Shown here: positions 2,706 through 29,362 of the stretch, one piece after another
Numbering within the stretch: the first letter of the stretch is position 1
How the letters are laid out: the number at the start of each line of letters is the position of its first letter
Virus record (IMG/VR): IMGVR_UViG_3300046718_000243
Span: 1-36,689 of that record
Length of the DNA stretch: 36,689 bases
Direction: 5' to 3' (one strand)
Source: a virus
Notes under the pieces: model-generated
Seen by the model: only the letters and a program-made list of their open reading frames with translations
Database searches by the model: none
Told to the model about the DNA's origin: nothing
Program-made: the position numbers and the translations under genes

Positions 2706-3007
2706 AGCGCCACAAGTTCAAGATCCAGCCAACCGCCGGGCCGCGCGGGTTCTCGGCATGGATCCCGCCGAACCCGTACCGCTACATGATGGAATGCTGC
2801 GACTGCGCCCTCGTCCACGAGATCCAGTTCAAGGCGATCAAGACGACCAAGGTGCGCGCGGACGGCATGTTCAAATACAAAGAGTTGCCGAGGACGACGC
2901 ATCGCGTCTTGATGCGCGTGCGCCGAGCAGAAAAGTACACCGAGCGACAGCGCAAGAAGCGCCGAGCCGCCGCGTCCGTCAAGGGGGGCGAGAAGCCGTG
3001 CCGATGA
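2702..3007 (+). CDS. Small basic hypothetical protein in a repeat-bounded cassette
   Basis: A 101-residue protein starting at GTG 2702, with the motif YRYMMECCDCALVHEIQF (paired cysteines followed by DxALVH) that I associate with small phage proteins of unknown function. The second half is rich in Arg/Lys (RRAEKYTERQRKKRRA), suggesting nucleic-acid contact. The C-terminus (ASVKGGEKPCR) is encoded by the second copy of the 25-bp direct repeat, so the gene is bounded by the two copies. The stop overlaps the ATG of the HNH-type gene by four bases. Confidence 0.65.
   Translation: MKRHKFKIQPTAGPRGFSAWIPPNPYRYMMECCDCALVHEIQFKAIKTTKVRADGMFKYKELPRTTHRVLMRVRRAEKYTERQRKKRRAAASVKGGEKPCR
2968..2992 (+). 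repeat. 25-bp direct repeat, copy 2
   Basis: Exact second copy of 2678-2702, 290 bases downstream, inside the 3' end of the gene at 2702 and just before the HNH-type gene. Recombination between the copies would remove the gene at 2702 and leave an intact junction into the HNH-type gene. Confidence 0.85.
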
Positions 3008-3327
3008 AGCGCAGCCGCTATCCCATGAACTGGGAGGCGATGGGGCGTGCCGTGCGCGCCCGCGCCGAACATCGCTGCGAATGCGTCGGCGAGTGCGGCC
3101 TGCATTATGAGCGCCGTTGCGAGGAACTGAACACCAAGCCAGCGAAGTGGGCGAAGGGCAAGGTTGTGCTGACCGTCGCGCACCTCGACCACGATCCCGA
3201 GACGTGCCGCGACCTCGAAAGGCTCAAGGCGATGTGCCAGCGATGCCACCTGCGCTACGACCGAGATTTGCACGCGAAGACAGCGAAGGCGACGCGCGCC
3301 CGAAAGGCTCCCCATGCCCCCCTCTGA
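3004..3327 (+). CDS. HNH endonuclease-like protein
   Basis: A 107-residue protein from ATG 3004 (GTG 2998 is an in-frame alternative). It has the layout of small phage HNH proteins: a cysteine-rich N-terminal knuckle (C25, C27, C31, C39), then VAHLDHDPE (H60, D62, H63), and LKAMCQRCHLRYD with C78-x-x-C81-H82. Family members usually have Asn-Leu just before the MCQ-C-H segment; here the aligned position is Arg73-Leu74, so the middle 'N' of HNH appears substituted. It may be a nicking or homing-type nuclease or a packaging helper, though it is not beside the terminase genes. Overlaps the next gene by 14 bases. Confidence 0.75.
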   Translation: MKRSRYPMNWEAMGRAVRARAEHRCECVGECGLHYERRCEELNTKPAKWAKGKVVLTVAHLDHDPETCRDLERLKAMCQRCHLRYDRDLHAKTAKATRARKAPHAPL

Positions 3328-3670
3328 CCTGACGGCGGCGCTGGAGGCGCTGGAGAGGATGGAGAAGGCGGCGACGCCTGGGCCATGGCTACATCGCTAC
3401 TTCCTCGGGCGCGCGGACTGGCCGGTAGTCATAGCCGAGGGGACCGGACACATCGCCGGGAACATCGACGGTGAAATATCAGACGCCGACGCCGCCCTCA
3501 TCGCCGCCGCCCGCAACTCCTTGCCCATGCTGATCGCGCTGGGAAAGCTCGCCATCGAGGCTGCCGATCTTGTGGCGATGTCGCGCCGCGTCGCCATAGA
3601 TAAACGCATCGAATGGAGCGAGCGTTTCCAGGCACTCGAAGACGCCTTCCCTACTCAGGAGAAAACATGA
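3314..3670 (+). CDS. Ea22-like phage protein
   Basis: A 118-residue protein with the pattern shared by Ead/Ea22-like phage proteins: LERMEKAATPGPW (ATPGPW at residues 20-25), a beta-rich middle (PVVIAEGTGHIAGNI), then a D-A-x-x-I-A-A-A-R motif (DADAALIAAARNSLPMLIAL) and a C-terminal helix. Family members are scattered in accessory and early regions of temperate phages; their role is unknown. The start is 14 bases inside the HNH-type gene with only a weak purine tract. The end carries caggagaaaac, the ribosome-binding site for the 598-residue gene. Confidence 0.7.
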   Translation: MPPSDLTAALEALERMEKAATPGPWLHRYFLGRADWPVVIAEGTGHIAGNIDGEISDADAALIAAARNSLPMLIALGKLAIEAADLVAMSRRVAIDKRIEWSERFQALEDAFPTQEKT

Positions 3671-5463
3671 GCACCGTAACTTTCGCGCTGATGACTCAGG
3701 ACGGGCATAGTCACGCCTACACGCTCACCGCAGCCATTGGCCCCGAGTGGCAGAGGAAGTGGTGCGTCATCGACGAGGGCGTCGTCGGGCTCGGCGTCCA
3801 CGTCTATTTCCGTTCCCTCCCCAACGGCGACACCCAGCTCGGCGTCCGCTTCTCCAACGGCTGCACACGGAGCGACGGAACCGGCTTCAAGGGCCGGCTC
3901 TACTACTCCAGCCTGACGCTCCAGGTGGACGGGGTGACGATCCGCGTCGTGTCGGACGGACTCCATTGCTTCCCGCCGCGCGCGATCCTGGAGCGGCGCT
4001 ACACGATCCACGGCGGCCAGGCCGTGCGCGGATGGGACTATGGCGATGTGTCGATCCCTTCCCCGGCTCCGGCGTTTGGCCCCGCGCGTGAAGCTCTGCC
4101 GCCCGTGGATCGGACGCACTACGCGCAGGCATTCGAGACGATGAACCTCCAGCTCCACGGAGCCCTCGAAGCCGGAACGAAGCTCACGCTCTACCCGTGG
4201 GGCACGAACGGCCCCGCGCCCGCGATCGACCTCCGCACGGACGCCCTCGGCCCGTGGATGCCGGATGGCTACCCCGAAGCTGGAGCGCCCGCAGGCTACG
4301 GCATCGACCTTGCCTTCGGCTGGAGCCAGACCACCGAGGAACTCGACTTCGCCTCGATGGCGCACGAGTGCGCGATGGATCGCAACCCCGTAGCCGCCTA
4401 CGACATCGACACGGGCGCGCAGATCACCTGCACGGACTGGGCAAACAACTACCTCGCGCACGGCCAGCTCGTCGGCTCAAAACTCGAACTCCCCGCATTC
4501 CTCCAAGGCACCTACGGACAATTCTTCTATGCGAACGCGAACCAAGGATCCTCGCCGTACCAAGCGGCGCTTGAGGGATATCAGCCTGACAATTCAGAAC
4601 ACGTCGTGCGGGCTATGCGGCGCGCGTGCGCGCTTGTGGGATGGGCCAACGATCCAATGGCTCTTGATGATCTCACAGCCCTCTTCGAGTACCACCGCAC
4701 GCTCTGGTTCGGCGACCGCGCCGACGACAAAACGCACGCATCGGACGGATCCTACGTCCCGCCGTCACTCTCCGCGCTCTCCTACTTCGTCGCGCTGAAC
4801 GGCCCGCACGGAGCACCCGTGCTGCGATCGTTCGGGTGGATGATGACGCTCGGAGCCTGGGCGAACGCGCCGAAGACCTGGGCGCAGAAGGCGATCGATA
4901 CCTACCTGGGCATGTGCGACAAGTTCGGCATCCCGCAGAGGGAGGCGCACACGCCCTACATCCCGGCCGGCTGGCTTGGGACCCAGCACTTTCACTCGGC
5001 CTACATCCACCACGGAGCCTGGACGCTCTCCAGGGCCGCAGGATGGCGCGAGAGCGACGTGCTCGCCATGATTGACCGCTGGCGCTCCTACGTGCTCAAC
5101 GCGCGCGGGATGCCTCTACAGGAGCGCCCGGACGGGCCGGGGAGCTTCGGGCCTCCGAAGTGGATCTTCACCCAGGGGCCGCAGGGCGAGGTGCCGCAGC
5201 TCACCACGGCAAGCACGAGCGGAGGCGGCTTCCAAGAAGGCGTCCTCGCGGTGCTCGGCCACGGCGCGCAGTCGGCGTTGGAAACAAACGCTGCCGCTGG
5301 AGGCTTAGGCCACGACGAGGTAACACAACGAATGCTCACCTCCGGCCTCGGCGTGGACTTGCCCGCCGCGCGGATCGGCGCGAAGCTGACCCAGATGCGC
5401 TCCCACACGGGCGACCAACAGGGCTTCGCCGCGTACTGGGCGGCGCTGGAGGCGACCACATGA
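3667..5463 (+). CDS. Large protein of unknown family, possibly carbohydrate-active
   Basis: A 598-residue protein from ATG 3667, by far the largest in this cluster. Residues 1 to about 150 are beta-rich (VTFALMTQDGHSHAYTLTAA; LYYSSLTLQVDGVTIRVVSD). The rest is dominated by Trp/Tyr-rich helical segments (PDGYPEAGAPAGYGIDLAFG; HSAYIHHGAWTLSRAAGWRE) resembling the beta-domain plus alpha/alpha-toroid layout of polysaccharide lyases and some glycosidases. I see no signal peptide, no membrane segment and no catalytic signature I can name. Near its end TSGGGFQEGVLAVLGHGAQS is Gly-rich. It is coupled on both sides (ATGA overlaps). It could be a virion depolymerase or another structural protein; the enzyme idea is inference from composition only. 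Confidence 0.7.
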   Translation: MSTVTFALMTQDGHSHAYTLTAAIGPEWQRKWCVIDEGVVGLGVHVYFRSLPNGDTQLGVRFSNGCTRSDGTGFKGRLYYSSLTLQVDGVTIRVVSDGLHCFPPRAILERRYTIHGGQAVRGWDYGDVSIPSPAPAFGPAREALPPVDRTHYAQAFETMNLQLHGALEAGTKLTLYPWGTNGPAPAIDLRTDALGPWMPDGYPEAGAPAGYGIDLAFGWSQTTEELDFASMAHECAMDRNPVAAYDIDTGAQITCTDWANNYLAHGQLVGSKLELPAFLQGTYGQFFYANANQGSSPYQAALEGYQPDNSEHVVRAMRRACALVGWANDPMALDDLTALFEYHRTLWFGDRADDKTHASDGSYVPPSLSALSYFVALNGPHGAPVLRSFGWMMTLGAWANAPKTWAQKAIDTYLGMCDKFGIPQREAHTPYIPAGWLGTQHFHSAYIHHGAWTLSRAAGWRESDVLAMIDRWRSYVLNARGMPLQERPDGPGSFGPPKWIFTQGPQGEVPQLTTASTSGGGFQEGVLAVLGHGAQSALETNAAAGGLGHDEVTQRMLTSGLGVDLPAARIGAKLTQMRSHTGDQQGFAAYWAALEATT

Positions 5464-5726
5464 GCGAGAAGAACCCGATGAAGCTATGGACGCTTCGACC
5501 GAACGCTTCGCCGGGACGCTCCGAGTGGGGTCCGTGGGACCCCTGGTATGACAAGGCATTCGGATTCGTGATTCGTGCAGAGACGGAGGAGCGCGCGCGC
5601 AGCCTGGCGAACGAGAGGTGCGGCGATGAGAAGAAAGTATGGACAGATCCGGCCCTGGCTACGTGCGTCGAGCTTCTTCCGCACGGCGCGGAGGAAGAGA
5701 TCATGCGGGACTTCTGGAGCGCCTAG
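5460..5726 (+). CDS. Small hypothetical phage protein
   Basis: An 88-residue protein starting in the stop of the previous gene. It contains WGPWDPWYDKAFGFVIRAET followed by EERARSLANERCGDEK and WTDPALATCVEL, a layout (FVIRAETEExAR...GDE...W.DP..T.C..L) that I recall from short, widespread phage proteins without known function. Predicted fold is a small beta-alpha-beta unit. It ends two bases before the winged-helix gene. Confidence 0.65.
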   Translation: MSEKNPMKLWTLRPNASPGRSEWGPWDPWYDKAFGFVIRAETEERARSLANERCGDEKKVWTDPALATCVELLPHGAEEEIMRDFWSA

Positions 5727-5728
5727 CC

Positions 5729-6091
5729 ATGAAGCGCCATCCCCCCGAGGAGGTCGATGAGCCGACGATGTTCGACGCGGCTCGGGCTCGATCCACGGAT
5801 CCCGAGACCTCCCATTTCGCAGCCGCGAGCGTCACGAATCAGACCACGATCCGCGCCAAGATCGTCCGCATCCTCATCTCGGCAGAGCTGACGGATGAGG
5901 AGATCCTCGACGGCTTCATCAAGCGCGGCTGGAGCGGAACGCCGTCCGGGGTTCGAACGCGCCGCTGCGAGCTGGTGGAATCCGGCGTCGTCGAGGACAG
6001 TGGGCGACGGCGACTCACCGATGCACGGCGGGAGTCGATCGTTTGGCGCTTGCGGAGCCCGCCAGGGCTTGCTACGGAGGGGCCGTGTTGA
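5729..6091 (+). CDS. Winged-helix DNA-binding phage protein
   Basis: A 120-residue protein with the conserved N-terminal STDPETSHFAAAS motif, a basic helix, and a winged-helix core: ILISAELTDEEILDGF (helix and turn), SGTPSGVRTRRCELVESG (recognition helix; T-P-S-G-x-R-T-R-R is typical), and a wing VVEDSGRRRLTDARRESIVW. This family is common near accessory or late genes of phages and is thought to bind DNA, perhaps as a regulator; its target is unknown. The start ATG 5729 has no strong purine tract, so translation probably depends on coupling to the gene ending at 5726. Confidence 0.75.
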   Translation: MKRHPPEEVDEPTMFDAARARSTDPETSHFAAASVTNQTTIRAKIVRILISAELTDEEILDGFIKRGWSGTPSGVRTRRCELVESGVVEDSGRRRLTDARRESIVWRLRSPPGLATEGPC

Positions 6092-6318
6092 TCTTCCTCG
6101 CCGTTATCGGCCTCATCTCCTTCTTCGTTTTCGGAGTCCTTACCGCCATGATCCTCGACGACATCCGCGCCCAAGTCACCCAAGCCAACGCCACGATCCA
6201 GACCCTTGCCGCCCAGATCGGGAACGACATCCCGCCCGCTGGCGCTCAAGAGATCCTCACCGGCCTCCAAGGCATCAACGCCTCCCTGTCCGCCCTCGTC
6301 ACCCCGCCCGCCCCCTAG
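6085..6318 (+). CDS. Small single-span membrane protein
   Basis: A 77-residue protein. I chose GTG 6085, behind acggagggg; TTG 6088 or an upstream ATG at 6043 are alternatives. Residues 2-24 (LIFLAVIGLISFFVFGVLTA) form one transmembrane helix; the rest is helical with coiled-coil character (IRAQVTQANATIQTLAAQIG) and a Pro-rich end. A small one-span protein with a soluble helix could be a holin, spanin part or lysis accessory, but no endolysin is recognisable nearby, so only membrane topology is supported. It overlaps the winged-helix gene by seven bases. Confidence 0.65.
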   Translation: MLIFLAVIGLISFFVFGVLTAMILDDIRAQVTQANATIQTLAAQIGNDIPPAGAQEILTGLQGINASLSALVTPPAP

Positions 6319-6325
6319 GAGAATC

Positions 6326-6678: not shown

Positions 6679-7911
6679 ATGGCTTACGGAAGCGCGCTCT
6701 ACGACCTCTCGTTCCTCGACACCTTCCTCCACTATCCGCTCGCCCGCATCAACGAAAAGTGGATCGGGGCCACCGCTACCGGAATCGCGCTGACGAATGA
6801 CGCAGCCGAAGGCGGCAACGTCGCCGTCTTCTCGGGAACCGGCCTTCTGGAGCATGTCCTTCCGAGCACGAAAACCGGCTGGACGATGGGCATTCGGATC
6901 AAGCCCACTCAGGTCAGTCTCGGGCAAGCCGAAATCTTCCGTCTCAGCTCCGGTGCTTCGCGGCTTGTTTCGCTCGGCTGGAGTTCGAGCGGCTTCCTCC
7001 AGTGGCGCAAAGCGGACGGCTCGGTCGTCGTCACGGACTCCGTAGTCCAGCTCACGTCGGCCTGGACGACCATCGAGATTGGCTTCTTCTGGATCGATAC
7101 GACGCACTCGAACGTCGAGGTTCTGGTCAACGGGACCCGGGTCGTCTCGCTGACCACGAGCAACTTCTCGGTGAGCCCGGCCGGCACGATCGCCACGACG
7201 GTCGTTCCTGGCGGCGCGGCGGCTCCCGATCGGATCAGCTTCCGGAACGTCATCACGACGGACGACGCCTTCTCGCTCTCTCATCTCTGGTTCATGCGCG
7301 ACACGGCGCTCTGGACGGACATCGGAGGAACCTATCCGACAGGTCGTCCGTTCGCGGGCACGCTCGCCAAGAACGTCCGCTATGCCACGTCGAACGGATA
7401 CTACGACGCGCCTGGAGCTACGCAGCCGACCGGAGGACTCACGGGGCTGCTCAACTCCAACTGGCGCAACGGCGACTCTAACGCGAACTTCGTCAGCCCA
7501 GGAATCGAGTACATCACGGAAGCCCTTGCCAACGGTGACGGTCCAGGTGCGGGCACGGTGAACAGCTACGTCCGAAATGCTGTCGTCCCCGCTTCGACCA
7601 CCGTTGACTTCGCCTCGTGGCAATTCGGCTCGCTTCCGGCAAACGCCAGCGCGGTCCACATGATCCAGCATTGCGTGGAGGCCCGCTGTTCTCCCGGCGC
7701 GGCGACGGGAAACATCAATCTGTTTCTCTCGCAGAAGTCCGTCGAGACGACGATCGCGCACGCGGCCGACATCGCGGCCCCGGGACTCTCATCTTCCAGC
7801 TACGGGATCTATCGCCAGCCCGCTGTCCAGAACCCGCTAACTTCGGCAAACTGGAGCGTGGCGCTCGCTAACGACCTCTCCGCAGGCGTGAGACAACGTG
7901 CGCTCTCGTGA
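6679..7911 (+). CDS. Lectin-like (concanavalin A/LamG type) virion protein
   Basis: A 410-residue protein. Residues about 1-215 have the beta-sandwich rhythm of LamG/concanavalin A-like domains: VAVFSGTGLLEHVLPST, TGWTMGIRIKPTQVS, a 'sugar-binding' style strand series (FLQWRKADGSVVV), and WTTIEIGFFWIDTTHSNVEV, followed by an interface strand series. The C-terminal half (GLLNSNWRNGDSNANFVSPG) looks like a second beta domain. Together with the downstream repeat and spike genes this suggests a surface or fibre component that touches host glycans. The frame has an upstream stop at 6658, so ATG 6679 is the only sensible start although no Shine-Dalgarno is seen. Confidence 0.6.
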   Translation: MAYGSALYDLSFLDTFLHYPLARINEKWIGATATGIALTNDAAEGGNVAVFSGTGLLEHVLPSTKTGWTMGIRIKPTQVSLGQAEIFRLSSGASRLVSLGWSSSGFLQWRKADGSVVVTDSVVQLTSAWTTIEIGFFWIDTTHSNVEVLVNGTRVVSLTTSNFSVSPAGTIATTVVPGGAAAPDRISFRNVITTDDAFSLSHLWFMRDTALWTDIGGTYPTGRPFAGTLAKNVRYATSNGYYDAPGATQPTGGLTGLLNSNWRNGDSNANFVSPGIEYITEALANGDGPGAGTVNSYVRNAVVPASTTVDFASWQFGSLPANASAVHMIQHCVEARCSPGAATGNINLFLSQKSVETTIAHAADIAAPGLSSSSYGIYRQPAVQNPLTSANWSVALANDLSAGVRQRALS

Positions 7912-8465
7912 GCGAAAACAGAGCAAGTCAGAGCGCCCTTGAAGCACTCTATGACACCCCCGCCCGAAACAACGTCACCCCAATCAATCAGACTCGGGCT
8001 TCTCAATCCGTTCTGGAGGATCTGGAAAAGAACAAGGCGACAGTTCTCCAGAATCGCGTCAGTCAGTCGGTTGTCGAGACGCTCTACATCCCGATCCTCG
8101 ACGACAACCGCGTCAGCCAATCCGTCTTGGAGTCCGTCGTCCGGACCCCGGCAGCACCCGGAACGAATCTCGTTTCGCAGTCCGTGGTGGAGGCTCTCTA
8201 CCGGAATCTCTGCAACATCGTTTCTCAGAGCGTCCTGGAGACGCTGTTCCCCCCGCCGGTCACACACGAGAACCGAGTCTCCCAGTCCTCTCTGGAGGCG
8301 CTGTACGTCGCACAGCTTCCTCCTCCGCCTCCAAGCACGGTTCCTGTCAAGGAATCTGGAGACGTGGCGATATCAGGCGTGGAGGGCTTTGAGGGCGTGA
8401 GCGGCGGCATCGAAGCAGGACAGACCGAGATGGGCGGCTTTGAAGCCTTCCAGGGGTTCCAGTAG
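7908..8465 (+). CDS. Seven-repeat 'VSQSV' virion protein
   Basis: A 185-residue protein starting with a GTGA overlap. It carries seven copies of an 11-residue motif, consensus R-V-S-Q-S-V-L/V-E-A/T-L-Y, starting at residues 5, 30, 50, 68, 88, 104 and 123, separated by variable 5-14-residue linkers often containing Pro or Asn. Comparable 'V-T/S-Q-x-V-V-E' repeats occur, as I recall, in minor virion proteins of other phages. A Pro-rich hinge (LPPPPPSTVP) and an acidic Gly/Phe-rich tail (EGFEGVSGG, GGFEAFQGFQ) follow. Its position between the lectin-like and spike genes suggests an adaptor or fibrous linker. Confidence 0.65.
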   Translation: MSENRASQSALEALYDTPARNNVTPINQTRASQSVLEDLEKNKATVLQNRVSQSVVETLYIPILDDNRVSQSVLESVVRTPAAPGTNLVSQSVVEALYRNLCNIVSQSVLETLFPPPVTHENRVSQSSLEALYVAQLPPPPPSTVPVKESGDVAISGVEGFEGVSGGIEAGQTEMGGFEAFQGFQ

Positions 8466-11336
8466 ATGCCCGCCCCCCGCACGTTCCGCCAAGACTTCTG
8501 GCAGGGCACCGACCCCGGAATGATGCTGTTCCGCGTCACGGGTCCGAACCGGATCCCGCTCCAGTCCGCCGACGTGACGCTGTTCCTGCTCGAAGTCTTC
8601 GACATGAGCGTCAGTCCGAAGCAGAAGGTCGCCTCAATCAGCGGACCGGGATCCCAGATCGTCTTCGACACGCTCCAGAAGAACGACGGATTCTGGAGCA
8701 AGGACGACATCGGCTACGACGTGCGCGTCTACCTCAGCGCGAGCGACTTCACCGTCCCGCCCCAAGGGGAGCACACCTACCGCACCGAGCTTGAACTGAC
8801 GACCGGGGACGTTTCTAACCGCTCGGGCGCGGCGACCGTTCCGGCTCGATGGGGAAAGCTCGTCGGCGTCGTCGAAGGAACCTGTCTTCCCAGAGAAACC
8901 GCACAGCTCGCCTCGGGCGGCTCCTCGGCTGACTTCTCGATCACGGTTTCCCCCAGTTCTGCCACGGCGAACCTCGGCGATAATCTCTCGTTCACGGTCT
9001 CGATCGGCGCGAGCAATGGGTTCTCGTCTCCCGTCGCGCTCAGCGCGGCTCCGGCCATCTCCGGAATTACCTACAGTTTCGACACGAACCCGCTCAGCCC
9101 GAACAGCTCGACGACGATGCACGTCAGCGTCAGCGGCTCAGCGAGCGGTGGAAACAACACGATTCTCGTGACCGGAACGGCCGGAACGCTCACCCATTCG
9201 ACTCAGATTCAGCTCTCGATCGCGCAGCCCGACTTCTCGCTCTCGACAGACATTCTTTCTGCGGCAATCGCCGTCGGGGCAACGCAAGACATCCTCGTCA
9301 CGGTCTCGGCCGCTTCGGGCTTCTCGGGCTCTGTTGCGTTGACGGCCACTGCGTTCCCGGCCATGACGGGCGCATCCTTCACGTTCGACAGCCCGAGTGT
9401 CACTCCGACCGCCTCGACGACGCTCCACGTCACAAACACGGGCAGCGTGCCGATCAACCTCTATTCGCTGACGATCAACGGCACGCAGGGGACGCTCTCC
9501 CACAACGCCTACGTCAACTTCCAGGTGGGCACACGGCCCGCGAACGGCTACACGGCCTTCACTGTCTCCAGTGACACGCGGATCATCTACCTCTCGACGA
9601 GCGGCGTTGACACGAACGACGGGCTCTCTCAACTCACGCCGAAGAGATCGATTGTCTCGGCCAGCCAGCTCCTCCGTTCCGGCTTCCCGGACTGGTTCCT
9701 GTTCAAGAAGGGCGATGCGTTCGACATCACCGGAAACGACAACTTTGGAATCTGGACGCGGAGCGGGCGCTCAATCAGCGAGCCCATGCTGCTCGGGGCC
9801 TACGGCTCCGGCACGACGCGCCCGCTGCTTCGTATTCACAAGGCGACGGGCCAGAGCGGCGAAGCCATCGGTCTTTATCACGACGTTGCGCACGTCGGGG
9901 CCGATCACGTCAGCATCGTTGGGCTCGAATGGTGGGCCGATCAGCACAGCCAACAGCAAGGACAGCCAGTCGCCATCATGTGGTTCGGCGCGAGCCAGAA
10001 TCTCTTGATCGAGGACTGCCGCGTGCGAGAGTTTTCCGTCGGAATCATCGTCCAGGGCACGTTTGAGTCCGGTCCGCACCACGCCAACTTCAAGCTGCGC
10101 CGCAACGTCATTCACGACTGTTGGAACTCCGATCCGTCCACGTCTCACGGCGTATACTCGGACTTCATCGACGGCTGGCTTGTCGAGGGCAACGTCTTCG
10201 ACCGCAACGGCTACGGATTCAGCGGACCGCTCTCGGGCTTCGCGTTGCAGCAAGCTCACAACATCTACATCAACAACGGGGCAACCGGCGTCATCGGTAT
10301 CGATAACGTCTTCGCCCAAACGTCTGGTTTCGACACGGCCAGGCCGGGCGGTATTTTCAAGAACAACCTCATGGCGCGCGTGGCTGTGGCGATGCGCTGC
10401 GGCCACCACGGAATCGGCGACGTTTCGCCGCCCGCTGGGATCACAGTGGAGATTCGCGGCAACGTCATCCTGGACGGAAACGACTTCTCTACTGTCACGA
10501 GCGACGCACGCGGGTGGGGCATCTCACTTGAGAACGTGGTCGGTGGCCTCGTGGACGGCAACATCATCGCCCACAACCGCTTCGGGCACGGCGCGACGCC
10601 GATTCAGTTCCGACTCAATGACTCGACAGGTCGGATCCTGGAAAACTGCATCATCTCGAACAACGTCGTCTATGACTGGCAAAGCCTTCCCTATCCACCC
10701 GCGCCTCCCGACCCGACGACATCCATAGCGATCGAGGCCGACACAGCCGGCGTGGGCTCGTTCTTCGGCAACAAGCTCCGCAATAACATCATCATGGAGC
10801 CCCGCGTCGGCGGGAATGGCGCGGACACGATCGTTTCGGCCAACATATCCACCGACATCCTGCCCGCGAACTTCACTGGATACGGGAACAAGTATTTCTC
10901 GATGCGCGGCGGCAATGGAGACTTCTCCAACGACGCATTCACGCTCGGATGGTTCAACGCCGGCCCCCCGCCGAGTGGCGGCAATAGCTACACCGTCAAC
11001 ACGTTCCGCGCCGCGATGGGCGATCCCGAATCGGGACATGCGGCCTCGATTCCCGAACTTCACATCTTCCCTGCGGGAACGACCACGCCCGGAGGCTCAG
11101 CCGCGCTCGATGCCGTGGACCTGGAGCACTACATGACCTCGATCAGCCTGCCGAACACGCTCGCCTACTTCCTCAACGGCGACAGTGTACGCAACGCGGA
11201 CGGCACGATCAGCGGGACGATCGGCGCTCGGATGCAATCCAGGGATCGCGGCTACTTCGACACCGAGACGCGCTTCACATCCACGGCGGTCAACAACTAC
11301 ATCCGCGCCGGCTTTGGAGTGACCTACACGCCATGA
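8466..11336 (+). CDS. Tailspike: adaptor, two Ig-like domains, beta-helix
   Basis: A 956-residue protein. Residues 1 to about 150 form a beta-rich N-terminal domain, probably the virion anchor. Residues about 156-255 and 256-355 are two related Ig-like repeats (DFSITVSPSSATANLGDNLS; DFSLSTDILSAAIAVGATQD), each with a fitting SxPVALSA or SGSVALTA strand. From about 361 to the end comes a pectate-lyase-like right-handed beta-helix with the phage-typical start RIIYLSTSGVDTNDGLSQLT and many N-x-I/V rungs (NVIHDC, NVFDRNGYG, NVILDG, NIIAHNRFG). Beta-helix spikes bind and often cleave host surface polysaccharide. The beta-helix is paralogous to that of the gene at 35265. The start directly follows the previous stop. 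Confidence 0.8.
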   Translation: MPAPRTFRQDFWQGTDPGMMLFRVTGPNRIPLQSADVTLFLLEVFDMSVSPKQKVASISGPGSQIVFDTLQKNDGFWSKDDIGYDVRVYLSASDFTVPPQGEHTYRTELELTTGDVSNRSGAATVPARWGKLVGVVEGTCLPRETAQLASGGSSADFSITVSPSSATANLGDNLSFTVSIGASNGFSSPVALSAAPAISGITYSFDTNPLSPNSSTTMHVSVSGSASGGNNTILVTGTAGTLTHSTQIQLSIAQPDFSLSTDILSAAIAVGATQDILVTVSAASGFSGSVALTATAFPAMTGASFTFDSPSVTPTASTTLHVTNTGSVPINLYSLTINGTQGTLSHNAYVNFQVGTRPANGYTAFTVSSDTRIIYLSTSGVDTNDGLSQLTPKRSIVSASQLLRSGFPDWFLFKKGDAFDITGNDNFGIWTRSGRSISEPMLLGAYGSGTTRPLLRIHKATGQSGEAIGLYHDVAHVGADHVSIVGLEWWADQHSQQQGQPVAIMWFGASQNLLIEDCRVREFSVGIIVQGTFESGPHHANFKLRRNVIHDCWNSDPSTSHGVYSDFIDGWLVEGNVFDRNGYGFSGPLSGFALQQAHNIYINNGATGVIGIDNVFAQTSGFDTARPGGIFKNNLMARVAVAMRCGHHGIGDVSPPAGITVEIRGNVILDGNDFSTVTSDARGWGISLENVVGGLVDGNIIAHNRFGHGATPIQFRLNDSTGRILENCIISNNVVYDWQSLPYPPAPPDPTTSIAIEADTAGVGSFFGNKLRNNIIMEPRVGGNGADTIVSANISTDILPANFTGYGNKYFSMRGGNGDFSNDAFTLGWFNAGPPPSGGNSYTVNTFRAAMGDPESGHAASIPELHIFPAGTTTPGGSAALDAVDLEHYMTSISLPNTLAYFLNGDSVRNADGTISGTIGARMQSRDRGYFDTETRFTSTAVNNYIRAGFGVTYTP

Positions 11337-11836
11337 GCACGATCCCGGTTGAAGCGATCGAGGCGGCGGTGGATCAGAGCCTTCGGAAGATGGCGAAGAA
11401 GAAGAAGCGCGGTACACCGAGGCCCAATCTCCGGAAGTACCGGTGGAAGGAGGGCCAGACGGGCAACCCTGGCGGCAAGCGCAAGCCCCCCAAGAACCTC
11501 GACGAAGGCGTAGGACAGGAACTCGGGAATCCCGATGAGATCCTCGCCATCGCGCGGGCATTGATCGCCAACGCAAAGGACCGCACCCATCCGGCTCAGA
11601 TGCGCGCAGCCGAGCTTCTCTTCGATCGCACATGCGGGAAGCCCCTCCAGCGCACCGAGCACTCCGGCTCGATCGGCCTCTATCGGGTCGAGCTGATCGG
11701 TCTGTCGCCGGACGAGATGGCGAGGGCCGCAGACCTGTTCCGCCCTCCGGTCGGAGGCGAGTTGGCCGAGAATGCGGAATCGAACGAGGACGAGCCGGCT
11801 CAGCGTGACATCCAGCGTGACGAGGACGACGAATGA
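11333..11836 (+). CDS. Terminase small subunit-like protein
   Basis: A 167-residue protein in an ATGA overlap with the spike gene and, at its end, with the large terminase. Residues about 40-52 carry the RWKEGQTGNPGGKRK motif (F/W-K-x-G-Q-S/T-GNPGG-K/R) seen in a family of phage and prophage proteins that often precede the large terminase. The following helical section (ILAIARALIANAKDRTHPAQ) plausibly forms the DNA-recognition oligomer, and the tail is acidic. Role in genome recognition for packaging follows from motif and position; the exact binding site is unknown. Confidence 0.75.
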   Translation: MSTIPVEAIEAAVDQSLRKMAKKKKRGTPRPNLRKYRWKEGQTGNPGGKRKPPKNLDEGVGQELGNPDEILAIARALIANAKDRTHPAQMRAAELLFDRTCGKPLQRTEHSGSIGLYRVELIGLSPDEMARAADLFRPPVGGELAENAESNEDEPAQRDIQRDEDDE

Positions 11837-13299
11837 GCCTCGCGGCGCTTGAAGAGGCACCCAAGCGGCTGCACTACCGGGGAGCCGGTGGAGCGGCGAA
11901 GCTCTTGAGCTGCCGAGCGCCCGAGATCCTCTTCGACGGTCCGCGTGGAACAGGCAAGTCCAGGGCTGTCGCCGAGTACCTGATCCAGTACGCAATTCGG
12001 TTCCCGGGCACGCGGATCCTCGTTCTTCGCAAGACCCGCGCGAGCCTCTCGGAATCGTTCCTCGTGACCTTCGAGGGCAGACTCGCGGTTCGATGTCCGT
12101 CTGCGCTGTCGATGGTCCAGCGCAGCCATCGGACCAAGTACACGATTGGCGCGAGCGAGATCGTCATTTCAGGGCTGGACATGGAGAGCCGGCAGCGATC
12201 GGGCGAGTACGCGCTGATCTTCGTGGAGGAAGCGAATGAACTCACTGAGAACGATTGGGAGATGGTTCAAGGCTGTCTTCGGTGGAAAGACGGTGGCGGA
12301 TACCACCAGATCGTCGGAGCCTGCAACCCCGATTCTCCCGGCCATTGGCTCTGGAAGCGGCATCGGAAGTCCCTCACCGGAGAGCTGGCCGGCTTCCAGC
12401 GGATTGCGTCCCGGCACACTGACAACCCTTCACTCGATGCGGATTATCTTGAACGGCTCTCGCGTCTGTCTGGTGTGCGGAGAAAGCGGTACTTCGAGGG
12501 AGAGTGGTTCGCCGCTGAAGGCCAGGTCTTCGACAACTTCTCCGAGGATCGACACTGGATCACCGTCCCCGAGGACAAGGACGGGAAGCGCGACTACAAC
12601 GCGCTCTCGATCTCCTGGTACTTCGCATCCGCCGACTGGGGTACCTCGAAACCTGGCTGCTTGGGCATCTGGGGGGTGGATGTCGAAGGGCGACTCTACG
12701 AGGTCGCCGAGGTCTACTTTGCGGGCAAGAGAACGGCGTGGTGGGCGGACGCTCTCGTCGAGTTGAATCGCAGGTTCCCGATCCGGATTGGAGTCGGCGA
12801 CCCAGCGCGGCCGGACATGATCACGGAGATGAACCTCGCGCTCGGCTACCGGCCCGACGGCCCCGAGGCGATCTTCTTCAAGGCGGACAACAAACGCGCG
12901 TCCAGTCCTAACGGCGACATGGGCGGCTTGAACCTCGTCCACGACTGGCTCGATCCGCAGAGCGACGGACGCCCGCGCCTGTTCTTCTGCCGGGACAATA
13001 CGCCGTTCGGCATCGACTCAGCGCTGCGCGAGTCTGGCAAGCCCTGTTCGACCGTCGAGGAGACTCCGAGCTACGTCTGGGCGAAGAACGCCGAGGGCAA
13101 CCAAGACAAGGACTCCACCGATCAGCGGTGCGAGGATCACGGCTGGGACCAAACCCGCTACGCCTGTACGTTCGCTCGCGGCAAGGATCTGAGCGGCGAG
13201 AAGGTGATCCCGCCCGATGAGCCGGGCACCTACGGCGATCTCTACGGCCACAACGAACTGATGGCCGAGATGCAGGCTGAGGAAGAGGGGCTCGACTAA
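11833..13299 (+). CDS. terL: Terminase large subunit
   Basis: A 488-residue packaging motor. The ATPase half has a Walker A GPRGTGKS at residues 36-43 and a Walker B with catalytic acid in ALIFVEEAN (E132/E133). The nuclease half has an RNase H-like set: SADWG with D268, VGDPA with D323, and a late EDHGWDQTRYACTF helix that fits the C-terminal acidic motif. This enzyme docks on the portal, translocates DNA into the capsid and cuts it. Length is normal for the family. It sits between the small terminase and portal, each joined by overlaps, unlike T7, where the terminase genes are at the other end of the late block. Confidence 0.93.
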   Translation: MSLAALEEAPKRLHYRGAGGAAKLLSCRAPEILFDGPRGTGKSRAVAEYLIQYAIRFPGTRILVLRKTRASLSESFLVTFEGRLAVRCPSALSMVQRSHRTKYTIGASEIVISGLDMESRQRSGEYALIFVEEANELTENDWEMVQGCLRWKDGGGYHQIVGACNPDSPGHWLWKRHRKSLTGELAGFQRIASRHTDNPSLDADYLERLSRLSGVRRKRYFEGEWFAAEGQVFDNFSEDRHWITVPEDKDGKRDYNALSISWYFASADWGTSKPGCLGIWGVDVEGRLYEVAEVYFAGKRTAWWADALVELNRRFPIRIGVGDPARPDMITEMNLALGYRPDGPEAIFFKADNKRASSPNGDMGGLNLVHDWLDPQSDGRPRLFFCRDNTPFGIDSALRESGKPCSTVEETPSYVWAKNAEGNQDKDSTDQRCEDHGWDQTRYACTFARGKDLSGEKVIPPDEPGTYGDLYGHNELMAEMQAEEEGLD

Positions 13300-15275
13300 T
13301 GGCTCTCAACATCGAACCCGGCCCGCTCTGGGAGGAATGCCACGAGGCGATCGAGTGGCACAAGAAGCGCATGAACGCGCTCAAGATGATGGTCGAGAAC
13401 TACCAGACGCCGTGGCATCGCGGCGTCACGGATCGCGCGTGGAACGGCTCCTCAACGGGGATGATGCAGTTCGACTCGCGCAATCACGCCTTCGAGTACA
13501 TCGCGCTCACGATCTCCTCGGTCGTCTTCGATAACCCGAAGTGGCTCGTCACGGCGAAGCGCGGGTATGCCGCTGAGGTCGATGCGCCGGCTCTCCAGGA
13601 CGGCCTGAACCGCTGGACACAGGACATCAAACTCAGGCGATTGCTCTCGAAGTTCTACGTGGACTATAGTTTCGGCCTCTCGACGTGCCTGCTTCGCCAG
13701 GAGCCGGAGCCAGGGAGCCGGGAGGCGAACCTCGCGCAGCTCAAGCACCGCCCGATGCCTCGCCGACTCGGGACTTCGCGCAGCTTTATTGACCCGCGCT
13801 GCTTCGACCGCGAGGACACGCGCTTCGCAGGCCACTTGTTCATCAAGGACAAGGAGGACCTGCTCGACATGGCGAAGGACGATCCCGACTCGGGCTGGAA
13901 CTTCAAGGTGATCCAGGGCATCGCCATCGGCTCTGGGATCGACGACATCCGCACGAAGGACACGACATTCAAGGCCCGTGACCGCGAAGAGATCGCGCTG
14001 ATCGAGGTCCACGTACCCGAGCACGAACTGCCCGACGATGACCCGTTCTGGAAGGACGTTCCCGACAACGAGCGGGACAACTACCACGGGACGGTCTTCA
14101 CGCTGCCCATGAACGGCGTAGCCGATCCCGAGGGCAAGATGGAGGACTACCCCAGGGCTCCGTATGCGTTCTATGGGCCGTCGAACGGGCCGTACTACTT
14201 CGGGGGCACGTACTACGTTCCGGACGATCCGCTGCCGCTCTCGAACCTGCTCGCAGTCGAGGGCCAGAACCGCCAGAACAACGCCGCCGCTCGGGCTCTG
14301 TTCCAGGCGATCATCGAATACAAGAAGCTGATCGTCACGTCGAGCAAGAGCCCGAGGCTCGCGGGGCTCGTGCGCAGGGCGAAGCACGGCGAGGTGGTGA
14401 GCGCGGACCTCCAAGACCTGACGCGGATGCTGCAACAGGTCGAGGTGGGAGGCCCGACGCCGAGCCTGGAAAGCGCGGCCGCCTACCTACAGGACTCGCT
14501 CGACCGATCCTCCGGCATCAACGAGAACTATCGCGGGCAGGTGACGGACGCGACGGCCACGGCCTCTTCGATCGCTCAGGCGGGCACGAGCGCGCGGCTC
14601 GCTTATCCCCGGCAACAGTTCCTCGACTTCGTGGCCGACGTGGGCTGGGGGGCAGCCTGGTACATGCACAAGGACGATCGGGTCAAGATCGACCTGGACG
14701 GGGGGGCAGGGACGATGCTCGGAGGCCCTCCGGACGCGCACCGGGACTTCATCGTCCAGACGCTCCAGGGGAAGGGCATCCCCGAGCAGATGGCTCACCA
14801 GTACGTGGACTTCGCCGAGAAGCAGTACCGCGAAACGCCCTTCGAGACCTTCGACTTCAAGATCGAGCCGACGAGCACGGGCAGGGCCAGCGATCCGGGC
14901 AACCAGCAGCGGATCATGTCGATGGTTCCCATGCTTGAGAACCTGATGATGGTCGCCGTCCAGGCCCCCTGGTTCAACACGCAGGAAGTGCTCCACCAGA
15001 TCGGGCAAGCCTACGACTTCCCGCAGATCGAGAAGGTCCTGAACCCGGCCATCTTGAAGCAGGCGCAGGCGATGATGATGCACGCCCAGGCGAACGAGGG
15101 TGCTCCTCCGGAGGCCCAGGCTTCGACAGGACAGCCCCGGATGGCGAGGGACATCACCACACCCCCTCCGGCCCCGTCGCACATCTCGAAGCCTCCTGGG
15201 CGGTCTGGCGTGAAGGAGCCGAAGTTCGGCAACACGGCCCCTATTGCAAAGCCCGCCACGGCGGGTAAGGCTTAG
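13299..15275 (+). CDS. Portal protein
   Basis: A 658-residue protein immediately after TerL (TAATG overlap). Portal-like segments include the N-terminal helices with YQTPWHRGVT, AFEYIALTISSVVFDNPKWL, a wing region ending GGTYYVPDDPLPLSNLLAVE, and INENYRGQVTDATATASSIA followed by SARLAYPRQQFLDFVADVGW, the stem/clip region typical of podovirus and siphovirus portals. The end is Pro/Ala-rich (PPEAQASTGQPRMARDITTP), probably flexible. It forms the dodecameric ring through which DNA is packaged and on which the adaptor is assembled. Position and motifs agree. Confidence 0.85.
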   Translation: MALNIEPGPLWEECHEAIEWHKKRMNALKMMVENYQTPWHRGVTDRAWNGSSTGMMQFDSRNHAFEYIALTISSVVFDNPKWLVTAKRGYAAEVDAPALQDGLNRWTQDIKLRRLLSKFYVDYSFGLSTCLLRQEPEPGSREANLAQLKHRPMPRRLGTSRSFIDPRCFDREDTRFAGHLFIKDKEDLLDMAKDDPDSGWNFKVIQGIAIGSGIDDIRTKDTTFKARDREEIALIEVHVPEHELPDDDPFWKDVPDNERDNYHGTVFTLPMNGVADPEGKMEDYPRAPYAFYGPSNGPYYFGGTYYVPDDPLPLSNLLAVEGQNRQNNAAARALFQAIIEYKKLIVTSSKSPRLAGLVRRAKHGEVVSADLQDLTRMLQQVEVGGPTPSLESAAAYLQDSLDRSSGINENYRGQVTDATATASSIAQAGTSARLAYPRQQFLDFVADVGWGAAWYMHKDDRVKIDLDGGAGTMLGGPPDAHRDFIVQTLQGKGIPEQMAHQYVDFAEKQYRETPFETFDFKIEPTSTGRASDPGNQQRIMSMVPMLENLMMVAVQAPWFNTQEVLHQIGQAYDFPQIEKVLNPAILKQAQAMMMHAQANEGAPPEAQASTGQPRMARDITTPPPAPSHISKPPGRSGVKEPKFGNTAPIAKPATAGKA

Positions 15276-16967: not shown

Positions 16968-18176
16968 GTGGCAGGCGTTCCGGTCAATGCTTTCACCGAA
17001 ACTGTTCGGTTGACGGGGTTGACTGTCTTCACTGGTGCTCGGGACATCATCAACGATTCCCAGAAGACCAACTACAACACTCAGGGCTACCTCATGCGAG
17101 GCCAGCCCATGTCTTCCGTCATTCAAGGCGGAACGCAGATCGTCGATGACATCTTCCTGTCGGCGGTTCGCAAGGCGCGTCCTTATCGAGCAGGCGCGAA
17201 ACAGTCCTACTCCAACCCGCAAACGGGCATCCAACTGGCCTGCCCGTGGCGTCAGTTCATCACGGACATCACGTGGGACGACACCGAACGCGAGTTGAAC
17301 GAGGGCGCTGCGCGAGAGGGAAACCGCTCGCTCCAGCTCAAGGACATCTGGACCAAGAAGCAGATGGTCACGTACTCGGACTGGTGCGACTTCACCGAGG
17401 AGTTGTACTGGAACGTTCCGGACAAGACGCGCATGGAGGACGCCAACGGCGACCTCATGTACAGCTTCCCGGCGCTCATCAACGAGTTCACGTCGGGCCT
17501 GTACCCGGCTGCGGCTCCTGGTGGTTTGTGGTCCACGAAGCTCGGGATCGACCCGACTGCGGCCGGGCAGACTCGCTGGGATAACCAGCGGTTCGCCTAC
17601 ACCGACGTGAACGTGGCCTCCACGTCCGGCGGCATCAAGAGTGGGTCTCTCATCTCCGTCTTCAAGACGGCTTTCAACAAGCTCGATCTGAGACCTCCGC
17701 CTCAGTTCAAGGAATACTTCGAGGCGGCGAACGCGAAGCCCGCGAGCTTTGTGGCCTGTTCGCAGAAGGGTCAAACCTTCGTCTGGGACATGTACATGAG
17801 TTCCCAGAACCGTTGGAGCGATCAGATGGACCCGTGGGGGATGCCGACCTTCGGTGGTGTCCCGTTCGTGTACGTCGGTCAGCTCGACGGCGCTCCGCTG
17901 TATCCCACGGGAACGGCCGGCGCGCTTTCGACCGAAGATGCGTTCGTGACTGCGGCTGCGTGTGGCCCTCGCTACAAGCTGATCCAGTCCGAATACATCA
18001 AGCAGTTCTATCATAGCAAATTCACGTTCCGGAACCTCGGCGTGATGGACGATCGGGCTCAGCCCACGTCGCACACCATGCCGCTCCTGACGTGGACCAA
18101 CCTCTTCCCGAGAAGCCTCTACCGTCAGGGTGAAATCTATCCCTCCTCGGTCGCGGCCTTCGCTACTGGCTTCTAA
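16968..18176 (+). CDS. Major capsid protein
   Basis: A 402-residue protein from GTG 16968, seven bases after a good gaggtaa site. Capsid-like signatures include an early extended arm (TNYNTQGYLMRGQPMSSVIQ), a helix-and-strand middle (VTYSDWCDFTEELYWNVPDK), and QMDPWGMPTFGGVPFVYVGQ before a long C-terminal beta-rich region ending MPLLTWTNLFPRSLYRQGEI, a layout seen in many about 400-residue coat proteins of short- and long-tailed phages. The fold is presumably HK97-like. It follows the acidic scaffold-like gene and precedes a small beta-rich protein, as expected for coat plus decoration. No cleaved prodomain is evident. Confidence 0.85.
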   Translation: MAGVPVNAFTETVRLTGLTVFTGARDIINDSQKTNYNTQGYLMRGQPMSSVIQGGTQIVDDIFLSAVRKARPYRAGAKQSYSNPQTGIQLACPWRQFITDITWDDTERELNEGAAREGNRSLQLKDIWTKKQMVTYSDWCDFTEELYWNVPDKTRMEDANGDLMYSFPALINEFTSGLYPAAAPGGLWSTKLGIDPTAAGQTRWDNQRFAYTDVNVASTSGGIKSGSLISVFKTAFNKLDLRPPPQFKEYFEAANAKPASFVACSQKGQTFVWDMYMSSQNRWSDQMDPWGMPTFGGVPFVYVGQLDGAPLYPTGTAGALSTEDAFVTAAACGPRYKLIQSEYIKQFYHSKFTFRNLGVMDDRAQPTSHTMPLLTWTNLFPRSLYRQGEIYPSSVAAFATGF

Positions 18177-27550: not shown

Positions 27551-29362
27551 ATGCCGGTTGTCGTTCATGGTTGGGCGGGAGGGCCGGCGCTTTCGAGCGT
27601 CGGGGATTCGGCCGTCGAGGCTCAGGACATCCGCGACCGCCAGAAGAAGGCGCAGATCGGGAATCAGGCGTATGTCTTCCAACTCCAGGAGGCGATGAAG
27701 AAGGCCGACGAGGAGGACCAACAAAGACAGGCGCAACAGTCGGCCGGCGAGTTCTCGATGAAGCTCTTGCCGCAGGACATGGGGCAGCCGCAGGATCAGC
27801 CGCAGGCGCAAGGTCCCGTGCAGCCCGCGCAGGGGCCGACGATGGGTGGATCGCCGCTCGCGCCTGGGCCGACGCCGACGATGGCTACGCCGCAGGATCA
27901 CGCGGACATGGCGGCGCTCGGCCAGAGTCACACGCAGCTCGCCCAACAGGCCGCGCAGATCGCCAAGTACCTTCCCCCCGAGGGACAGGCGCGGCTCAGG
28001 AACGACGTGAGCGCGAAGTTCGCGCAGGACGCGCTCCAGGTCCGCCGAGAACAGGTCCACCGACGCATCCTCGACATGGCTGCGCACGGAGCGTTCGGTG
28101 CGGCCCCCGAGGGCAAGGACGGTCAGGGCGATCAGGCGGGCCAGGAGGACATCAAGGCTCTGGCCGAAGCGGCGATGGCTCCCGACTCCGATCCCGAGGC
28201 CGTGCTTGGCGAGGCACTCAAGCGGAACGAGCCCGTTCGGCAAGCCGCGATCGATGAAGCGCGCCGAACGTCAATCGGTCAATCCGCCCTCCAGGACATT
28301 GAAGCCCTCAAGGCTGCGAACCAGCACCCGAGCGCCTACGCAGCCGGTCTCGCAAACGACCTGATCACGCACCGAATCTCCATCGAGGACTTCCAGAAGG
28401 AATGGCCGATGGCGAAGCTCGGGAACGTGCCGATTACTGACTCGCTCGGGCGGCGCGTGTGGGTGCCGGAGGCGCAGGCTCAACAGATCCAATCGGACAT
28501 GCAGGACGCCGCGAAGGCTCGCGCGGAACTCTCACGCGCGCAGGCCGAAGAGGCGCGACAGAGGGGCGCACGGGCGAGCCCGTTCGGACAGATGCTCCGG
28601 AACGCGGGCGAGATCGCCAAGACCCAAGGCGCGAACACGGCGAGGCAGCAGGCGATCGAAGCCGCCGCCCGCGAAAAGGCTCAGGTTGCGACGCAGCAGG
28701 ATCCCACCTACGTCAACGCGCCGCCTGAACAGCGGAACGCGATCTATCAAGACCTGTTCGAGCGCAACCTGAACAACATGCTCCCGGCGTCGATGAGGTC
28801 GAAGCCGGGGGAGGCCCCGACCGATCCGGCCGGGATCATGGACGCGATCCGAAAAGAACAGCGCGGCGGGAAAGACCCGGCCAAGCTGGCGGCTCTGGTC
28901 CAGCAGTACCGAGCCGCGCAGGGGCAGCCGGGGCAGCCTTCTCCGGGGGGAGCTGGGGCTTCACCCCCGGCTGCGCCTGCCTCTCCGCCGCCTGTAGCGT
29001 CGCAGGGCGAGGTCTCACCGGATCGGATCCCTGCCCTGGAGGCGAAGCTCAAGTCTCTCCAGGACGGATCCTGGAGCCCGACGCCGGAGGACTACGTGAA
29101 GACCATCGGCGACAAGCTCACCGGGGCGGCTGAAACGGCCGTCAACGCGGTCCCCGGCGTCCAGACGGCGAAGAAGGCCGGCAAGGCGATCGGCGAGGCG
29201 GCTCAGAGCCTCGGGGCGCAGGCCAGCCAGGCGGGCGGGATGCTGCGCCAGGCGTGGGCGCAGCGAGTGAACGAGATGCTCGATTCGGTCAAGCCGTCGC
29301 GGCGGGACATGATCCGGATTCTCCGAGAGGAGATCGAGGCCGCGAAGGGCGGCGCGAAGTAG
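27551..29362 (+). CDS. Gln-rich internal virion protein (T7 gp15-like position)
   Basis: A 603-residue protein whose ATG directly follows the previous stop. It is dominated by Gln/Ala-rich helices (EDQQRQAQQSAGEFSMKLLP; QTLAQQAAQIAKYLPPEGQA-like segment near 27930), with Pro/Gly/Gln linkers (PQDQPQAQGPVQPAQGPTMG; PGGAGASPPAAPASPPPVAS). The C-terminal 80 residues carry an amphipathic helix and a moderately hydrophobic Ala-rich stretch (AVNAVPGVQTAKKAGKAIGE). Helical, low-complexity proteins of this kind are inner-core or ejectosome tunnel components. T7 gp15 (747 residues) is the analogue by position. Its stop overlaps the megaprotein start by one base. Confidence 0.6.
   Translation: MPVVVHGWAGGPALSSVGDSAVEAQDIRDRQKKAQIGNQAYVFQLQEAMKKADEEDQQRQAQQSAGEFSMKLLPQDMGQPQDQPQAQGPVQPAQGPTMGGSPLAPGPTPTMATPQDHADMAALGQSHTQLAQQAAQIAKYLPPEGQARLRNDVSAKFAQDALQVRREQVHRRILDMAAHGAFGAAPEGKDGQGDQAGQEDIKALAEAAMAPDSDPEAVLGEALKRNEPVRQAAIDEARRTSIGQSALQDIEALKAANQHPSAYAAGLANDLITHRISIEDFQKEWPMAKLGNVPITDSLGRRVWVPEAQAQQIQSDMQDAAKARAELSRAQAEEARQRGARASPFGQMLRNAGEIAKTQGANTARQQAIEAAAREKAQVATQQDPTYVNAPPEQRNAIYQDLFERNLNNMLPASMRSKPGEAPTDPAGIMDAIRKEQRGGKDPAKLAALVQQYRAAQGQPGQPSPGGAGASPPAAPASPPPVASQGEVSPDRIPALEAKLKSLQDGSWSPTPEDYVKTIGDKLTGAAETAVNAVPGVQTAKKAGKAIGEAAQSLGAQASQAGGMLRQAWAQRVNEMLDSVKPSRRDMIRILREEIEAAKGGAK

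Follow-up and report, generated by a model that had tools for sequence, protein, structure and literature searches.

A phage relative of an unnamed Planctomycetota family of secretion-type proteins, with a possible action on host glycans

Examination of a 36,689-base stretch of viral DNA, which is a whole IMG/VR virus record and is referred to here as the window, revealed among its small accessory genes a frame for a 598-residue protein with homologues in Planctomycetota. An orphan phage protein is thus placed in an unnamed family of secretion-type, enzyme-like proteins. Judged from the sequence comparisons, the chances are about even that this product is a host-derived, soluble protein of carbohydrate-active type, composed of a beta and a helical domain and acting in the cell or after lysis. 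We advance more tentatively the fuller proposal that an undescribed family of carbohydrate-active Planctomycetota proteins here gains its first phage member, which would have been taken from the host, trimmed and kept as a soluble enzyme against host polysaccharide in a lineage of Planctomycetota podoviruses.

The gene, its phage homologue and the Planctomycetota family

The frame is free of stops over 598 codons of the plus strand (Table 1). An alternative in-frame ATG at position 3613, further upstream, would yield 616 residues; the start at 3667 is favoured because it is preceded by an AGGAGA motif and forms an ATGA overlap. A preliminary description, made from the letters alone, had remarked that the gene is far larger than its neighbours (598 residues versus 118 and 88) and coupled to them on both sides, and the two ATGA overlaps bear this out. 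The base composition by codon position (GC of 0.65/0.52/0.83) is like that of the terminase, portal-like and capsid-like genes of the window. The length of the frame lies within chance: in 200 first-order Markov sequences of window size, the longest stop-free run of the plus strand had a median of 374 and a maximum of 662 codons. At this GC content, length alone would not show the frame to be coding; it is a real gene all the same, the existence of homologues having settled its coding status.

Table 1. Features of the window that bear on the 598-residue protein
Feature	Position	Strand	Basis or remark
HNH endonuclease ORF, same region	2758..3327	+	phrog_1571, E 1.9e-30
Upstream small accessory ORF, 118 aa	3314..3670	+	weak PHROG matches, function unknown
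Shine-Dalgarno AGGAGA	3657..3662	+	read directly
ATGA start/stop overlap with upstream ORF 3314-3670	3667..3670	+	
598-aa gene, phage homologue of the Planctomycetota secretion-type beta + helical family	3667..5463	+	open frame; homologue P0002; bacterial-only profile, E 6.3e-16
Beta-rich domain, residues 1-121 (42-118 match the bacterial second domain); holds N64, R110, R111	3667..4029	+	hhalign; strands in low-confidence model
Helical domain, residues 150-598, taken as alpha/alpha toroid; profile homology to about residue 525	4114..5460	+	HMMER, hhalign, low-confidence model
R239, identical in 19/19 rows	4381..4383	+	
H312-x-x-R315, identical in both phages and 17/17 bacterial rows	4600..4611	+	
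R387 and W391, identical in 19/19 rows	4825..4839	+	
His-rich patch HFHSAYIHHGAW, residues 441-452, present here without conservation across the family	4987..5022	+	
ATGA stop/start overlap with downstream reading frame 5460-5726	5460..5463	+	
Downstream small accessory reading frame, 88 aa, ATG 5460, stop ending 5726	5460..5726	+	
Terminase	11833-13299		PF04466, E 2.5e-11
Portal-like	13299-15275		position; Pfam and PHROGs name none
Capsid-like	16968-18176		position; Pfam and PHROGs name none
2004-aa ORF	29254-35268		

The protein (P0001 below) had also been described as belonging to no recognised family, in agreement with the library searches: Pfam, NCBIfam and PHROGs gave no match at E<=10, and PDB a single one at E 1.7. 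A PDB profile search with the phage pair defined below gave no match, and PDB searches with one bacterial relative or with family alignments gave none below E 0.4. Direct searches with P0001 recovered nothing in phages, viral contigs, plasmids or genome contigs; in tblastn against phages at E<=10, nineteen of the 20 records listed, all at E 8-10, come from a single Flavobacterium phage group, and the remaining one stands at E 5. Degenerate motif scans returned seven loci in viral contigs, one being the known relative and six chance matches, and 11 matches in genome contigs, all of them chance; a scan for the pattern of the His-rich patch returned none.

The relative was sought in 77 viral records that have the conserved domain of the window's large protein. 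With P0001 as the query, and 50 of the 77 records searched, a 549-residue ORF (P0002) was found at E 1.2e-6 in IMGVR_UViG_3300046791_000199, hereafter G002; a two-sequence comparison gave E 2e-10 and 29% identity in the alignment. A profile of the two phage proteins found a homologue in G002 alone over all 77 records (1/77) and in none of three named phages (0/3). G002 is also the closest relative found for the window, with identities of 38, 30 and 43% for terminase, portal-like and capsid-like proteins, and a scan with the capsid alignment confirmed G002 alone. P0002 itself has no Pfam match at E<=10, and tblastn against phages at E<=10 brought up two records, one at E 0.4, where the match runs antisense to an annotated gene, and the other at E 3. 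The gene of P0002 occupies the corresponding region of the map: it belongs to a group of small genes and precedes the terminase by about 4.3 kb, compared with about 6.4 kb in the window, where a tail-like module intervenes. The two phage proteins resemble each other in this location and in the absence of the same N-terminal part, whereas P0002 differs in its 549-residue frame and at several conserved positions.

The same two-phage profile was run over bacterial genomes, in five samples whose phylum names were read from the titles of the centre records. Matches at E<=1e-3 were obtained in 10 of the 343 Planctomycetota genomes (18 matches, best 8.1e-13) and in none of 347 Acidobacteriota or 329 Myxococcota genomes. 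At E<=0.01, one of 288 Verrucomicrobiota genomes (best 0.006) and three of 296 Actinomycetota genomes (best 7.8e-4, over 74 columns) were matched, and these four weak matches were judged, by score alone, to be due to chance. The Planctomycetota proteins appear to be the sole convincing cellular relatives in the sample, the 1260 genomes of the four other phyla having given none.

Seventeen of the 18 Planctomycetota matches make up the bacterial set used below; the other, G1583:C69 (E 1.1e-5), was dropped, as it was absent at E<=0.01 in a local search. The 17 open frames measure 827-925 residues from stop to stop, save for three longer ones (1090, 1227 and 1341). Seven of the 17 rows have a lipobox-like motif near their start (the pattern matched eight, and the match in L149 was discounted as lying inside the mature domain), and several other rows have hydrophobic leaders by eye. 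In each of four genomes (G1602, G1635, G1677 and G1682) two copies are found, separated by no more than a few kb. Eight of the 10 neighbouring genes scanned have a Pfam match and are ordinary cell genes: an aldehyde dehydrogenase, a PPIC-type rotamase, two M28 peptidases and one M10 peptidase, a PMT_2-type glycosyltransferase, a PaaA/PaaC-like protein and a di-haem oxidoreductase. Because of such neighbours, the family genes look chromosomal rather than part of prophages. The glycosyltransferase is the sole glycan-related gene among these Pfam matches, which include no sugar hydrolase, lyase or sulfatase, and this counts against a role on glycans.

The bacterial family has no name in Pfam (two proteins scanned) or in NCBIfam (eight proteins scanned), and one of its proteins has a GH76 match at E 0.043, below the cut-off. 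With two bacterial members as queries, tblastn found nothing in phages at E<=0.01. Literature searches, at the level of listings, found no published description of a Planctomycetota family of this kind. Loci L140-L153 encode secretion-type proteins of about 850 residues whose scanned members are without Pfam or NCBIfam name and whose first domain resembles the PcRGLX barrel.

Domains and conserved positions

Homology between the phage and the bacterial proteins was assessed with a profile of the 17 bacterial rows from which the phages were excluded. It recovered P0001, at the E-value given in Table 1, and P0002, at E 1.1e-12, and nothing besides them at E<=1 among 9511 ORFs (from the window and the fetched loci) and 2002 decoys made by shuffling or reversal. 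The stretch found by HMMER in P0001 covers about residues 177-411, and an N-terminal stretch scored just 0.3 bits, which is not significant. In hhalign, P0001 alone matched the bacterial family at E 8.5e-17 over residues 42-525, and ten column-shuffled phage pairs taken as controls gave E 0.09-0.94. Residues 1-145 matched the second domain of the bacterial proteins (E 6.7e-6; 5.2e-5 for the pair; ten pair shuffles, 0.06-0.77) and the part after residue 145 matched the third (E 1.1e-12; 1.1e-18 for the pair), with crossed comparisons at E 0.26-0.90. By these profile alignments the beta and the helical domain each match on their own, and their order is that of the bacterial proteins.

Compared with the Planctomycetota family of about 850 residues (for example G1539:C71:12536-13348), the phage copy is alike over residues 42-525 of P0001, but it has neither the first domain nor the secretion-type start, and the aligned identity is 19-24%. 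This start and the first, RIFT-like domain are absent from both phages. P0001 starts near the second domain, and no hydrophobic export signal is seen by eye at its start.

The bacterial alignment of 17 rows has 39 invariant columns, 30 of them covered by both phages. P0001 keeps 21 of the 30, P0002 keeps 23, and both keep 17, namely G43, N64, R110, R111, G195, P199, G206, G210, G218, R239, H312, R315, L323, G382, R387, W391 and W405; as a background, the two phages agree with the bacterial majority at 57 and 56 of 304 little-conserved columns. Most invariants are thus kept, but others are clearly lost in one phage or in both, including a K replaced by L333 in P0001 and an R replaced by A in both phages. 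In a tree, the phage branches have lengths of 2.8 and 3.4, the median being 0.52, and because the phage rows stand on such very long branches an altered function of the phage proteins is possible. With a support of 46/75 and long branches, a single acquisition shared by the two phage genes is no more than possible. His-rich patches had been pointed out as a feature of the protein; HFHSAYIHHGAW is indeed present, but it is not a family signature, since the column of H443 holds E in 15 of the 17 bacterial rows, as it does in P0002.

The preliminary description had further likened the protein to carbohydrate-active enzymes built from a beta domain and an alpha/alpha toroid. What survives of this likeness is indirect: the protein is homologous to Planctomycetota proteins with a PcRGLX-like N-terminal domain and shows strands followed by helices in a low-confidence model, but the phage pair itself has no PcRGLX match. 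PcRGLX, which we take to be the PL26 group of exo-rhamnogalacturonan lyases, which start with a RIFT-type barrel and end in an alpha/alpha toroid, was represented by a set collected via PF21345 and PF21346 (20 loci, the longest open frame of each, three frames of less than 580 residues being omitted). The N-terminal part of the bacterial family matched that of PcRGLX at E 8.7e-6 (prob 83; reversed control, 0.75), and the whole lengths matched at E 3e-5 (prob 73; six shuffles, 0.5-0.96). The helical parts gave a weak match, at E 0.0019 and prob 14, the reversed controls of these comparisons being at 0.30-0.75. Pfam PcRGLX models had no match at E<=1 in the two bacterial relatives scanned. Taken together, these alignments suggest that the bacterial relatives begin in the same way as the PcRGLX carbohydrate-active group and probably have its layout.

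For the phage pair, the comparison with PcRGLX was not significant over the whole length (E 0.26; shuffles, 0.29-0.70), and by parts it gave E 0.12 for the helical and E 0.80 for the N-terminal part. Membership of the phage protein in PL26 was rejected on this pair value and on the lack of a Pfam PcRGLX match at E<=10. PcRGLX/YetA proteins (PF21345/PF21346) have in common with the bacterial relatives the N-terminal domain and a similar order of further domains, whereas that shared domain is absent from the phage and no HMM of theirs matches P0001.

Structure prediction followed by a fold search had been put forward as a check and brought little. Both AlphaFold models are unusable, with pLDDT of 32.1 and 29.6; the first has nine strands and then helices, an arrangement that agrees with the domain assignment but carries little weight, and Foldseek with this model gave no match at E<=1e-3.

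Genomic setting and possible roles

The order of head and tail genes in the window is like that of a short-tailed phage, and the record may be a fragment of a genome. The 598-residue gene stands among small ORFs upstream of the terminase and outside the tail-like module (6679-11336), which separates the accessory genes from the terminase. In G002 an internal virion protein has weak homologues of ORFs 6679 and 8466 next to it (hhalign E 2.5e-4 and 0.003), and the repeat ORF of the module had no significant match there (hhalign E 0.18); the module may have been relocated between the lineage of the window and G002. The repeat ORF (7908-8465) contains seven RVSQSVLE-like units, and an ORF of the relative (L094:1444-2532, minus strand) contains three FTQDTFEG-like units; each of the two is beside a concanavalin-like ORF by eye, and there is no significant homology between them. 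A small frame at 6087-6320, with one hydrophobic segment and then a likely coiled stretch, may encode a membrane protein, again by eye.

In the reading that we prefer, the gene would derive from a Planctomycetota host, in a family whose proteins begin with a signal or lipobox, followed by a RIFT-like barrel, a beta domain and a helical domain, and the phage copy would have lost the export signal and the first domain. The remaining beta domain would be packed on an alpha/alpha toroid, with H312, R315, R239 and R387 in the cleft, and the phage protein may still bind, and probably cleave, a host glycan. Made as a soluble protein during infection, it could act on glycans inside the host or, after the cell has burst, on the surrounding host polysaccharide, helping the progeny to get away. 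Action in the cytoplasm or after lysis is proposed because the protein has no export signal and its gene lies outside the tail module. On this best reading the protein is neither a tail spike nor a lysin.

An intracellular auxiliary metabolic enzyme, which would process oligosaccharides taken up by the host and feed replication without a role in entry or exit, is the alternative that fares best; we regard it as unlikely when considered by itself, and its chances are counted within those of the preferred reading. It accords with the lack of a signal peptide (by eye) and with the location of the gene, in both phages, in a region of small genes away from the tail genes. However, no gene for sugar uptake or sugar metabolism is present among the scanned neighbours in the window or, by eye, in the other phage, and the cytosol would be an odd place to meet the same substrate if the bacterial proteins act outside it.

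Less probable again is a catalytically dead protein that has kept the scaffold and lost the activity, binding glycans or serving as a decoy. The long branches, the losses at several invariant positions and the absence of the first domain are what such a protein might show, but H312, R315, R239, R387, N64, R110 and R111 are kept in both of these distant phages, which looks like selection on the cleft.

Depolymerases are common on short-tailed phages, and a virion-associated depolymerase, attached to the tail or to the capsid, would fit the tail-like module that follows closely in the window. We nevertheless find it improbable: in G002 the tail-like homologues adjoin the internal virion protein but P0002 remains among the accessory genes, and the sole beta-helix-like hint in the window is in another ORF (8466-11336), where a NosD-like stretch reaches E 4.9e-4, below the cut-off. 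Pfam and PHROG searches of the 598-residue protein found neither a tail-binding N-terminus nor a beta-helix. Of the roles first envisaged, a depolymerase and a host-metabolism gene are both still candidates, and a depolymerase of the tail is disfavoured. Homologues confined to virion proteins would, by the preliminary description, have spoken against an enzyme; the homologues found are not so confined.

The cell-wall enzyme for exit that the preliminary description had also considered is very improbable, because, even with no clear lysin elsewhere in the record, no peptidoglycan-hydrolase family was matched at any level by P0001 (Pfam, PHROG, NCBIfam) or by the scanned bacterial relatives (two in Pfam, eight in NCBIfam), and the record may miss part of the genome. 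The accompanying remark that no other lysin is seen was not disproved, although the 2004-residue ORF has an "endolysin" PHROG label (phrog_7348, E 3.4e-14) without any Pfam domain at E<=0.1. We consider this label doubtful. Three named phages have matches to the ORF, one of them Pelagibacter phage HTVC028P, in whose record tail-tubular and internal virion proteins are annotated. A domain of this ORF, at 31819-33051, has relatives in 77 viral loci, partly under the same label.

Should the soluble, host-derived protein that we favour be active, the phage copy would offer a smaller form with two domains, and its expression could help to reveal the function of the whole family.

Host of the phage lineage

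Homologues of the capsid-like protein were found in one of 154 genomes of the Planctomycetota class to which G1635 belongs. This genome, G1706, carries them on a pair of contigs, 39.8 and 25.9 kb long (E 2.8e-74 and 3.4e-42). Each contig is phage-like and has several genes in common with the window: terminase, portal-like, capsid-like and one or more besides. Three profiles found no homologue of P0001 in these contigs at E<=10. A Planctomycetota host is hinted at because the contigs of G1706 and the Planctomycetota-only relatives of the protein point the same way; the contigs are binned ones, and the capsid search was made in Planctomycetota alone and so provides no control. A phage lineage previously without a host is in this manner directed toward Planctomycetota, a phylum for which, to our knowledge, few phages are known. 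The four loci of G1706 are distributed as L156 and L159 on contig C283 and L157 and L158 on contig C38. Phages are mentioned many times in a report on a cultured deep-sea planctomycete (PMC10945688).
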